This document shows, piece after piece, positions 19,048-52,522 of a stretch of DNA of 64,000 nt. The notes under the pieces are model-generated. The model was not told the DNA's origin and did no database searches. It saw only the letters and a program-made list of their open reading frames with translations. The stretch is taken from the NCBI RefSeq assembly GCF_005503625.1, contig NZ_SCMX01000023.1:1-64000 (forward strand). Direction: 5' to 3'. How positions within the stretch are numbered: position 1 is the stretch's first letter; each line of letters begins with the position of its first letter. Both the position numbers and the translations under genes were made by a program. Origin of the DNA: Cupriavidus sp. 2SB (GTDB lineage Bacteria > Pseudomonadota > Gammaproteobacteria > Burkholderiales > Burkholderiaceae).

Positions 19048-20157
<1,110 letters not shown>

Positions 20158-20158
20158 C

Positions 20159-20164
20159 TATCAT
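20159..20164 (+). promoter_or_regulatory. -10-like box for the hemB-engB RNA candidate
   Basis: TATCAT (20159-20164) lies seven bases before the first base of the first hairpin (GGACACC at 20171). No convincing -35 is seen; the matching region at about 20136-20141 is A-rich. Confidence 0.35.
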
Positions 20165-20170
20165 ACTCGC

Positions 20171-20287
20171 GGACACCTTGTGTTGCTTCGCGCAGCGCGG
20201 TGTCCCCCGCTACTCCTCCCTGAGCGGGTACCCGCCCTGAACCGGTGGGAAAGTTTGTCCCCGTTGCTTGCAACGGGGCTTTTTTTT
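20171..20287 (+). ncRNA. Structured small RNA candidate between hemB and engB
   Basis: About 117 bases on the plus strand, opposite to both neighbours. Hairpin 1: GGACACC (20171-20177) with GGTGTCC (20199-20205), capped by GTTGC/GCAGC. Hairpin 2: CCCGCT (20206-20211) with AGCGGG (20223-20228). Hairpin 3: CCCGCC (20231-20236) with GGTGGG (20244-20249). The end is a perfect terminator stem, CCCCGTTG/CAACGGGG (20259-20278), then C and eight T. An RNA motif named after hemB has been described in betaproteobacteria; this may be it, from memory and unverified. No protein frame fits. Confidence 0.6.
20259..20287 (+). terminator. Strong intrinsic terminator of the RNA candidate
   Basis: Perfect 8-bp stem (20259-20266 with 20271-20278, loop CTTG), then C and T8. 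It is oriented on the plus strand, with no plus-strand protein gene upstream to need it, which supports an RNA gene. Confidence 0.85.
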
Positions 20288-20331
20288 GTCCGGCCAATGC
20301 GGGGATGGCTGCGGGAATATGCGCGAGGGAA

Positions 20332-21006
20332 TCAGGGTTGCGGCGTGACCGTGCCCTGCTCGGGCGGCTGGGCTTCCGGTAGCGCCAGCCATCCGGCTAC
20401 TACGCGCTGGGCTTCCTCGATACCGCGCCTTTTAAGGCTGGAGAACAACTGCGCAGTCAGAGGCGGCGGGTTGTCCATCTGCTGGGAATAGTTCGCCAGG
20501 ATGCGCCGCGTTTCCCGAAGCGCATTGGTGTTGTCGTTTTGCGTCAACTTGTCGGCCTTGGTCAACAGCACGTGGATCGGCTTGCCCGTGGGCAGGAACC
20601 ACTCGACCATCTGGCAATCGAGGTCCGTGAAAGGGCGTCGCGCGTCCATCATCAAGATCAGGCCCATCAGTTGCTGTCGCGTCTGGACATAGTCCGACAG
20701 CAGTCCCTGCCAGTGGAACTTGGCACTCCCCGACACCTGCGCATAGCCATAGCCGGGCAGGTCCACGAGGAAGGCAAGCGGATCGGTGGCCTTGACCGGT
20801 GCCACCGTGAAATAGTTGATGTGCTGCGTGCGGCCAGGCGTGCGCGACGAGAAAGCCAGGCGCTTCTGGTTGCACAGCGTGTTGATGGCCGTCGATTTGC
20901 CGGCATTGGAGCGGCCGGCAAACGCCACCTCGGGCACTGCCGTGGCGGGCAGGTCGCGCAGATGGTTGACGGTATCGAAGAAGCGGGCCTGATGAAGAAG
21001 GGACAT
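20332..21006 (-). CDS. engB: Ribosome-biogenesis GTPase EngB (YihA/YsxC)
   Basis: 224 residues on the minus strand. EngB is a GTPase needed for 50S assembly. Motifs: G1 GRSNAGKS (31-38), the G3 region [12 protein letters not shown], and G4 LTKADKL. The C-terminal end (GTVTPQP) is short. It is divergent from cytochrome c4, an arrangement also known in Pseudomonas. The start [13 protein letters not shown] at 21006 fits the family. Confidence 0.96.
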
Positions 21007-21102
21007 GCGCGAATGCGGTAAGGAGGGCGAAAAGCCGGACTTGGCAAGCTGCCAGTGCAGACGTCGCCACAGAGAATGACCTAAGTCAATCCGGAAAGCG
21101 AT

Positions 21103-21116
21103 TTATTGTACAATAA
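21103..21116. repeat. 14-bp perfect palindrome in the engB-cytochrome c4 gap
   Basis: TTATTGTACAATAA is its own reverse complement and lies about 100 bases before the engB start. It contains TACAAT on both strands, so it may be a promoter element or an operator. The rest of the 368-base gap holds a small hairpin (TTGCCG/CGGCAA near 21153-21175) and no credible gene. Confidence 0.5.
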
Positions 21117-21374
21117 CCCGGTTTACGGTCTCCTGAGCAGGTGGCGTGTGGCATTCTTGCCGGATGTCATCGGCAATGCTTTAAATCGATCGCTTGAGCT
21201 TGAAGTTGTTCGCGATCAATTCAAAGGCTTGCGCATACGCGGTACCAGGCTCTCTGTTTTTTCTGCTCACATAGGCGCTTCCTCACCGCCAGGCAGGACA
21301 AAGGCAGGGGTCAGGAAAGGGACGACCGGCGGCATGCATTACGGTGTTCATAACAAATCTGACAAGGTGTACTA

Positions 21375-22037
21375 ATGAACCGCATTGCGAAACTTTTGGG
21401 TGTCATGGCGCTGGCTGTTCCGCTTGGCGCAATGACTGGGCTGGCAACTGCCGCAGAGCAGGCCGCCACCACGAAAGCTGATCCCGCCAAGGGCGAAACG
21501 CTTTACACACAGGGCGTCCCTGATCGCAATGTTCCCGCCTGCTTCTCCTGCCACGGCGCCGCTGGCAACAGCAGCGCCGCAGTCAATCCCAAGCTGGCTG
21601 GCCAGCAGGCCGACTATACACACAAGCAGCTTGTCGATTTCAAGGCCAAATCGCGGGACAACCCGATCATGTCGCTCTACGCTGGCGCGCTGTCGGATCA
21701 GGACATGCGTGATATTGGCGCCTACCTGGCCAAGCAGCCACTGAAGCCTGCCACGGCCAAGAACAAGGATACGATCGAACAGGGCCAGAAAATCTACCGT
21801 GCGGGTATTGCCGCGAAGGGTATCCCGGCTTGTGCCGGCTGCCACGGACCGACCGGCGCCGGGATTCCGGCGCAGTATCCCCGTATCGGAGGCCAGTATT
21901 CCGAGTACACCGAAGCACAACTGGTGGCATTCCGCCAGGGCACCCGCAAGAACAATTCGGTCATGACCACGATTGCCGCCAGGATGTCGGATGCCGAGAT
22001 CAAGGCGGTGGCGGATTACGTCGCCGGCGTCCGTTAA
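21375..22037 (+). CDS. Di-haem cytochrome c4
   Basis: 220 residues. A signal peptide of about 26 residues precedes two similar haem domains with CFSCH (Cys56-His60) and CAGCH (Cys153-His157). Each domain also has a methionine in the usual axial position. Cytochrome c4 is a periplasmic electron carrier feeding terminal oxidases. It sits just before System II cytochrome c maturation genes, and a terminator follows. No start ambiguity is seen. Confidence 0.94.
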   Translation: MNRIAKLLGVMALAVPLGAMTGLATAAEQAATTKADPAKGETLYTQGVPDRNVPACFSCHGAAGNSSAAVNPKLAGQQADYTHKQLVDFKAKSRDNPIMSLYAGALSDQDMRDIGAYLAKQPLKPATAKNKDTIEQGQKIYRAGIAAKGIPACAGCHGPTGAGIPAQYPRIGGQYSEYTEAQLVAFRQGTRKNNSVMTTIAARMSDAEIKAVADYVAGVR

Positions 22038-51749: not shown

Positions 51750-52522
51750 CCGGCTTCTTCATCTCCATCGGCGCCGCGCTGCGCCAGTTCGTGGGTGGCC
51801 TGGGCCGAGCGACGCGCATGTTCGTGGCATTGCTGGCGCTATCGCCTGCGCTCTTCCGCCGTTTCCGGCTGGTGACCGATCAGGTGTTCTTCGTGGGCAA
51901 CCTGTCCCTGCTGATCATCGCGGTGTCGGGGCTGTTCGTCGGATTCGTGCTGGGCTTGCAGGGCTACTACACGCTGAACCGGTACGGCTCGGAACAGGCG
52001 CTGGGGCTGCTCGTGGCGCTCTCGCTGGTGCGCGAGCTGGGTCCGGTGGTGTCGGCGCTGCTGTTTGCGGGCCGCGCCGGTACGTCGCTGACGGCCGAGA
52101 TCGGCCTGATGAAAGCGGGCGAGCAACTTACGGCCATGGAAATGATGGCCGTGAATCCGCTGCAACGCGTGATAGCGCCGCGCTTCTGGGGTGGCGTGAT
52201 TGCCATGCCGGTGCTGGCGGCCATTTTCAGCGCCGTGGGCATCCTGGGCGGCTATGTCGTGGGTGTGCAGTTGATCGGCGTGGATGCCGGCGCGTTCTGG
52301 TCGCAGATGCAGGGCGGTGTCGATGTGCGCGCCGACGTGCTCAATGGCGTGATCAAGAGCTTCATCTTTGGTGTCGCGGTGACGTTCATTGCGTTGTACC
52401 AGGGGTTTGAGGCCAACCCGACGCCTGAAGGGGTATCGCGCGCCACGACGCGCACCGTGGTGATGGCGTCGCTGGCCGTGCTGGGGCTGGATTTCCTGCT
52501 GACCGCGCTGATGTTCAGCTAA
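51746..52522 (+). CDS. mlaE: Phospholipid transport permease MlaE
   Basis: 258 residues from TTG 51746, which overlaps the mlaF stop (TTGA) and follows GGAGGC. The permease has several membrane helices ([39 protein letters not shown]). The motif [27 protein letters not shown], split as usual, is the conserved coupling region. It works with MlaF. Confidence 0.95.

Follow-up and report, generated by a model that had tools for sequence, protein, structure and literature searches.

The anti-hemB RNAs (Rfam RF02837, Burkholderia RNA 7) have been on record since at least 2012, and the parts of the literature examined assign no function to them. The representative of B. cenocepacia J2315, ncS04, comes from a dRNA-seq study of transcription starts and is named as anti-hemB in PMC5688073; the available sections of that paper give a length of 105 nt and a 3' end confirmed with RACE, and describe its level as not significantly changed across seven tabulated conditions and largely uninduced by short stress exposures, SDS included. 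In the excerpts of two further reports, ncS04 is printed in the arrangement <- -> <- and was co-purified with Hfq (PMC4603805), and Anti-hemB of B. pseudomallei is listed as trans-acting (PMC3521395). ErsA of Pseudomonas (RF01719, Pseudomon-1) is governed by AlgU, represses algC with the aid of Hfq and is called a functional orthologue of Spot 42 in the portion of a review consulted (PMC8395346). According to an excerpt from another study, sigma-E turns on a small RNA (sRNA) that lowers target mRNAs (PMC1804206).

Anatomy and family of the RNA between hemB and engB

In the window (the whole stretch of 64,000 nucleotides that was analysed), an RNA with hairpins and a U8 terminator is encoded on the plus strand between hemB and engB, both of which are confirmed to lie on the minus strand. 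The features of the locus are as follows.

19048..20040, minus strand: hemB, transcribed away from the RNA, with its ATG at 20040; seen as a neighbour within the order only
20139..20144, plus strand: -35 element of sigma-E type, GAACTT, read from the letters; same element ([GA]AACTT) and spacing in 36/36 RNAs of the genus
20161..20165, plus strand: -10 element of sigma-E type, TCATA, 16 bases after the -35 element and ending five bases before hairpin I
20171..20287, plus strand: whole small RNA, about 117 nt; putative start placed by promoter and hairpin I, 3' end by the terminator
20171..20205, plus strand: hairpin I, a 5' hairpin beyond the Rfam model, from the fold; the counterpart helix in relatives co-varies
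20206..20228, plus strand: hairpin II with an exposed loop; pair probabilities 0.976-0.999, stem paired in 97.9% of alignment cells
20213..20220, plus strand: CTCCTCCC loop motif, complementary to Shine-Dalgarno sequences; CTCC and its neighbours invariant or nearly so in alignment A1
20231..20249, plus strand: hairpin III, from the fold; helix 3 co-varies
20259..20287, plus strand: intrinsic terminator with U8 tail (stem 20259-20278, T8 20280-20287); helix 4 co-varies
20332..21006, minus strand: engB (yihA/ysxC), convergent with the RNA; seen as a neighbour across the class

Folding of positions 20140-20290 gave a z-score of -3.72, and 0/200 dinucleotide shuffles folded equally well. A cmscan search returned RF02837 (anti-hemB) at 20203-20287 with 71.4 bits against a cut-off of 49.5 (E 1e-14, model positions 1-81 of 81), the sole match at the gathering threshold in the 64-kb window. 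The original prediction of a structured, terminator-ended plus-strand RNA is thus borne out by the letters, the coordinates, the shuffle test and the Rfam match; the covariance search against Rfam that it had proposed was positive, and its guess of a hemB-associated betaproteobacterial motif was right. The window RNA is a member of RF02837, as is also indicated by its place between hemB and engB. In sequence and in the model's three hairpins, one of them the terminator, it agrees with the family, to which ncS04 belongs; the printed arrangement of ncS04 corresponds to the order hemB, RNA, engB in the window. The model, with 81 positions, lacks hairpin I, whereas the window RNA has it. The RNA probably starts near 20171, upstream of the Rfam-matched part; model R1, which was built from RNAs of the order and similar ones, matched 20167-20287 with 66.3 bits. 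The U8 terminator is the probable Hfq-binding end. A terminator serving engB on the minus strand was ruled out, as the stem is not followed by a T run there and the terminator scan lists the plus strand only.

Covariation was counted in alignment A1, which holds 55 of the 93 extracted RNAs, the remainder (gamma-type forms that diverge, additional RNAs from the window's family, and L263) having been removed before the count. Changes on both sides were found in 26/30 pairs, a value reached in 0/500 shuffles, which ignore relatedness, and in 7/7 pairs of helix 1, the counterpart of hairpin I that is missing from Rfam. When the partners were slid, pairing fell from 90.8% to at most 50.0%, in a control that favours the structure because the latter was taken from one aligned sequence (L271). 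A further alignment, A2, was fitted to the model, so that its pair counts lean to the structure. The compensatory changes in relatives by which the RNA was to be checked are therefore present, and the RNA family has four co-varying hairpins. The RF02837 and RF01719 models both begin after hairpin I, and both are probably too short at the 5' end.

Two folds had also been deemed possible, with AGCGGG (20223-20228) choosing either CCCGCT upstream (20206-20211) or CCCGC downstream, which would make the RNA a two-state switch. The 12-base palindrome GCGGGTACCCGC (20224-20235) does exist and recurs in 34/36 RNAs of the genus, but it occurs in 0/119 RNAs outside it. The alternative hairpin has a probability of 0.0001, the forced fold reaches -49.5 kcal/mol versus -56.2 kcal/mol, and, because the gene that follows downstream (engB) is encoded on the minus strand, a switch would have no plus-strand gene nearby to control. 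The alternative fold exists on paper and is hardly populated; on pair probability, forced-fold energy and palindrome distribution, the switch was rejected as scarcely credible.

RF02837 was found over its cut-off in 54/60 relatives, 57/80 family members and 14/274 class genomes, tallies that each count the window's own genome, the first two sets sharing a few more. At E <= 0.001, 124/274 class genomes matched, but so did 3/14 control genomes; weak matches therefore need other support, which was sought in their position, i.e. their relation to engB. No second copy over the RF02837 cut-off was found in the genome of origin. One candidate (C83, about 52037-52125) reached 27.7 bits with RF02837 and 23.3 bits with R1 (E 0.03), reads CTCCTCCACC, has no GAACT upstream and was taken as a chance match.

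Several variant forms were seen alongside. In the other genera of the family, seven RNAs that pass the RF02837 cut-off (L104-L110) have no hemB or engB within about 1.5 kb and differ in hairpin III, possibly representing a moved or paralogous form. In L131 (genome G242) and L216, the third hairpin region reads TGTGTGACAGCAAAAAGGC; in G242, about 579 kb separate the variant from engB, and inspection by eye revealed no GAACT upstream of it. Many genomes of the family also contain several short weak RF02837 matches each, about 55-65 nt long, which are perhaps CU-rich double-hairpin RNAs (RF02278).

Neighbouring genes and the question of hemB antisense control

As a divergent neighbour, hemB was found for 36/36 RNAs of the genus, 39/48 of the other genera of the family and 15/19 families of the order; engB was convergent with the RNA in 36/36, 40/48 and 16/19, respectively. 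Among 50 RNAs from across the class, engB was found near 28 and was convergent in 26; no hemB turned up near any of the 50 in the short stretches covered (about 0.8-1.9 kb). Genome-wide positions relative to engB were taken from 51 of the 124 matching class genomes, with engB located in 44; of the other seven, six had no engB match over the cut-off and G342 was outside the engB search. In these 44, the RNA adjoins engB convergently in 27 (at 14-390 bases) and on the same strand in three, lies far from it in four and is on another contig in ten. Conversely, 30 loci were chosen by engB alone; at E < 0.001, R1 matched in 14 of them (13 convergent, one on the same strand), and eight of these 14 have polA on the other side, on the strand of the RNA. 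The tie of the RNA to hemB is thus local and its wider neighbour across the class is engB; the name anti-hemB points to a local neighbour.

These counts bear on the reading suggested by that name, in which the RNA pairs with the hemB leader or its transcription interferes there. The constant divergent position of hemB in the genus (36/36), kept in 15/19 order families, speaks for it, as would the prediction, in the part of a review consulted (PMC6321483), of hemB as a target of the Hfq-bound RNA Bc7, should Bc7 be the window RNA. However, the RNA is directed away from hemB and does not overlap its coding region, and the 50 class RNAs have engB and polA beside them while hemB was found near none in their short stretches. 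Duplex energies, which ignore the folds of the RNAs, point both ways. At the hemB ATG (20040), the loop gave -5.2 kcal/mol, with 98/109 background starts as low, and the first 85 nt of the RNA gave -26.2 kcal/mol, with 108/109 as low. In the region of an upstream TTG (20085), the loop reached -8.5 kcal/mol (40/109 starts as low), but the first 85 nt formed a crude duplex of -54.2 kcal/mol, equalled by 10/109 crude window starts. A hemB-antisense role is accordingly disfavoured and very improbable, with some room left by the value at the TTG.

Promoter elements upstream of the RNA

The sigma-E consensus is GGAACTT, a spacer of about 16 bases and TCNNA. The rpoE operon of the window's own genome (TIGR02939, 322.2 bits) is preceded by GGAACC-N17-TCACAG, and the window RNA by GAACTT-N16-TCATA. 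Within 80 bases upstream, GAACT-N15-19-TCNNA was found in 13/19 order families, represented by one RNA each (shuffle mean 0.14, maximum 2), and in 29/50 class RNAs (shuffle mean 0.24, maximum 2); the class count includes tandem copies, the 50 RNAs coming from 39 loci picked from the better RF02837 matches. This strict motif occurs in 9/36 RNAs of the window's genus and in 1/48 of the other genera of its family. None of the four sets (order families, class, genus and other genera) had it on the reverse strand, and far upstream, as a control, it was found in 0/18 order, 2/50 class, 0/36 genus and 0/48 other-genera RNAs. In the genus, the -35 position is occupied by GAACTT in nine RNAs and by AAACTT in 27, so that [GA]AACTT-N16-TCATA is kept in 36/36.

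Sigma-E-type elements are thus present in the window and mostly absent from the other genera of its family, many of whose RNAs (Burkholderia-like by eye) carry TGGTATATSATA near the -10 position instead. In these Burkholderia-like genera the elements appear to have decayed, which would explain the flat expression of the member studied there, ncS04, and the window's genus would have kept them as GAACTT or AAACTT. The same decay could extend further: the window RNA may be an ordinary RF02837 sRNA with a housekeeping promoter throughout its genus, the sigma-E link being ancestral and lost in the window's whole family as it apparently was in the Burkholderia-like genera. Consistent with this are the single strict motif among 48 RNAs of the other genera, a TATCAT that overlaps the window's -10 element, and the unchanged level of ncS04 in the seven conditions tabulated in the available part of PMC5688073. 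However, a promoter scan of 19900-21400 returned no sigma-70-type promoter, [GA]AACTT-N16-TCATA stands at one spot in all 36 genus RNAs examined, and the window itself carries the full GAACTT. We regard loss of the sigma-E link in the window's family as possible but unlikely. A sigma factor other than one of sigma-E type could also read the window promoter.

A pattern scan for GGAACT matched at least 119 stretches. Among the matches listed were 80 named loci, of which 23 were judged by eye to be chance; as all 80 bore GGAACT by design, none was counted for promoter frequency. The scan also matched a near-identical repeat in five Acinetobacter loci (L221, L266, L269, L270 and L284), which resembles 23S rRNA by eye and was dropped as a chance match. 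At eleven loci (L130, L132, L214, L225, L141, L173, L114, L117, L124, L133 and L135), two to five R1 matches adjoin each other, with five in L132, and many of the tandem copies scored are each preceded by a separate sigma-E-type promoter.

Possible relation to ErsA and Spot 42 and a proposed role

The comparison with ErsA was made in a set of 24 engB loci from family f185, which was taken as Pseudomonadaceae because a member has PrrF. Judged by motif, 14/24 loci carry GAACT or GAACC at the place of ErsA, together with a TCAGA-like -10 element and an RNA whose terminator loop is C-rich; 11 such loci were submitted to Rfam, and RF01719 was over its cut-off in ten, the other scoring below it at 40.1 bits. 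R1 matched at this place with 12.6-21.3 bits in 12/24 loci. A second model, R2, was built from 84 class-wide RNAs, with no genome of f185 among its rows; it scored the window RNA at 63.5 bits and matched the place of ErsA with 24.7-38.8 bits in 15/24 loci (above 30 bits in nine), leaving nine of the 24 without a match. RF02837 was over its cut-off in 0/25 Pseudomonadaceae genomes, and of 13 weak matches none lay beside engB where engB is known. Because RF02837 itself misses ErsA, the link between anti-hemB and ErsA rests on R1, R2, place and promoter. No match to RF01719 at the gathering threshold was found in the window.

ErsA and the window RNA have in common a position convergent with engB, a promoter of sigma-E type, hairpins of which the terminator has a C-rich loop, and a match to R2, and the window RNA thereby shows the characters of an ErsA-type lineage: it converges with engB, bears sigma-E-type promoter elements and falls under the common covariance model R2. 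In contrast, hairpin II and its loop have diverged in ErsA, which has UGCUCCU where the window RNA has CUCCUCCC; the other neighbour of ErsA is polA and that of the window RNA hemB; and ErsA escapes the RF02837 model, which the window RNA matches.

The resemblance could also be superficial, if anti-hemB, ErsA and other RNAs at the engB flank were unrelated, the shared site simply suiting convergent terminators and the likeness coming from terminators and C-rich loops. R2 did match what reads as a terminator on the strand of engB in L202 (20.8 bits) and gave 28.4 bits in a decoy (L274), and Rfam keeps anti-hemB and ErsA as separate families. Across 41 decoy loci (225 kb), however, the other nine of ten R2 matches stayed below 18 bits, whereas the 15 ErsA loci were matched at one place, nine of them above 30 bits, and forms from across the class have hairpin I, the CUCCUCCC hairpin and sigma-E-type promoters in common. 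Unrelated origins therefore appear improbable. The decoy match itself (L274:2254-2346) lies on a Chromatiales-titled contig that came in by a chance pattern match, and may be either a real copy or a terminator and thus a false match.

Spot 42 (RF00021, spf) has the same place and orientation as the engB-flank RNAs, lying in Escherichia coli between polA and yihA (engB), and is under cAMP-CRP control. Its R2 score of 17.4 bits is within decoy noise and gives no reliable match in sequence or structure, so that Spot 42 is at most a candidate homologue. RF00021 had no match in the window and was over its cut-off in 0/369 class genomes under strict filters. A weak RF00021 match in another genome (L352) has no engB or polA within 1.5 kb of it.

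We lean towards anti-hemB, ErsA and perhaps Spot 42 being a single, ancient sRNA gene in the 3' flank of engB, which would predate the split of beta- and gammaproteobacteria, would first have been controlled by sigma-E, and would have been copied in tandem in some lineages and have acquired new promoters in others, namely in the Burkholderia-like genera and, provided that it is a member, in Spot 42. A single lineage of sigma-E-type sRNAs flanking engB in both beta- and gammaproteobacteria would be new as far as the literature searched shows; its titles, abstracts and passages contained no tie of anti-hemB to ErsA or RpoE. Two or three Rfam families would then become one.

The window RNA itself is probably a free-standing base-pairing sRNA of the anti-hemB/ncS04 family and of ErsA lineage, an old resident of the engB 3' flank of envelope-stress type that would mask Shine-Dalgarno sequences through its CUCCUCCC loop. 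Envelope damage would cause an RpoE-type sigma factor to turn on the RNA, Hfq would hold its U tail, and the loop would pair with the Shine-Dalgarno regions of several mRNAs, perhaps including some for envelope proteins, and block their translation. In this putative way of working, a sigma-E-induced sRNA lowering target mRNAs, lies its likeness to RybB and MicA, sigma-E-dependent sRNAs of enterobacteria that are encoded at other loci than the window RNA. Anatomy, conservation, place and promoter type were read from the sequence of the window RNA and its relatives. For those relatives, in the parts of the reports available, others have demonstrated transcription and Hfq binding (ncS04; PMC5688073, PMC4603805) and sigma-22 control with Hfq-assisted repression (ErsA; PMC8395346).

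Several results run against this ErsA-type envelope-stress role: 14/44 class RNAs are far from engB or on another contig; the strict promoter occurs in 1/48 RNAs of the family's other genera, and AAACTT replaces GAACTT in 27/36 of the genus; ncS04 was flat in seven conditions and short stresses were largely non-inducing in the sections of PMC5688073 available; R2 gave false matches of 20.8 and perhaps 28.4 bits; and 9/24 Pseudomonadaceae engB loci had no R2 match. If the role holds, betaproteobacteria gain a candidate sRNA arm of the RpoE response, and the testable question becomes whether RpoE induces the RNA and which start sites the CUCCUCCC loop covers. The loop is complementary to nearly every strong Shine-Dalgarno sequence, and a target search for GGGAGGAG-N3-11-ATG returned 14 sites versus 10 in the reversed control, with no clear enrichment. 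Among these sites were many tiny frames and two starts of CopR/CusR-like response regulators (named by eye).
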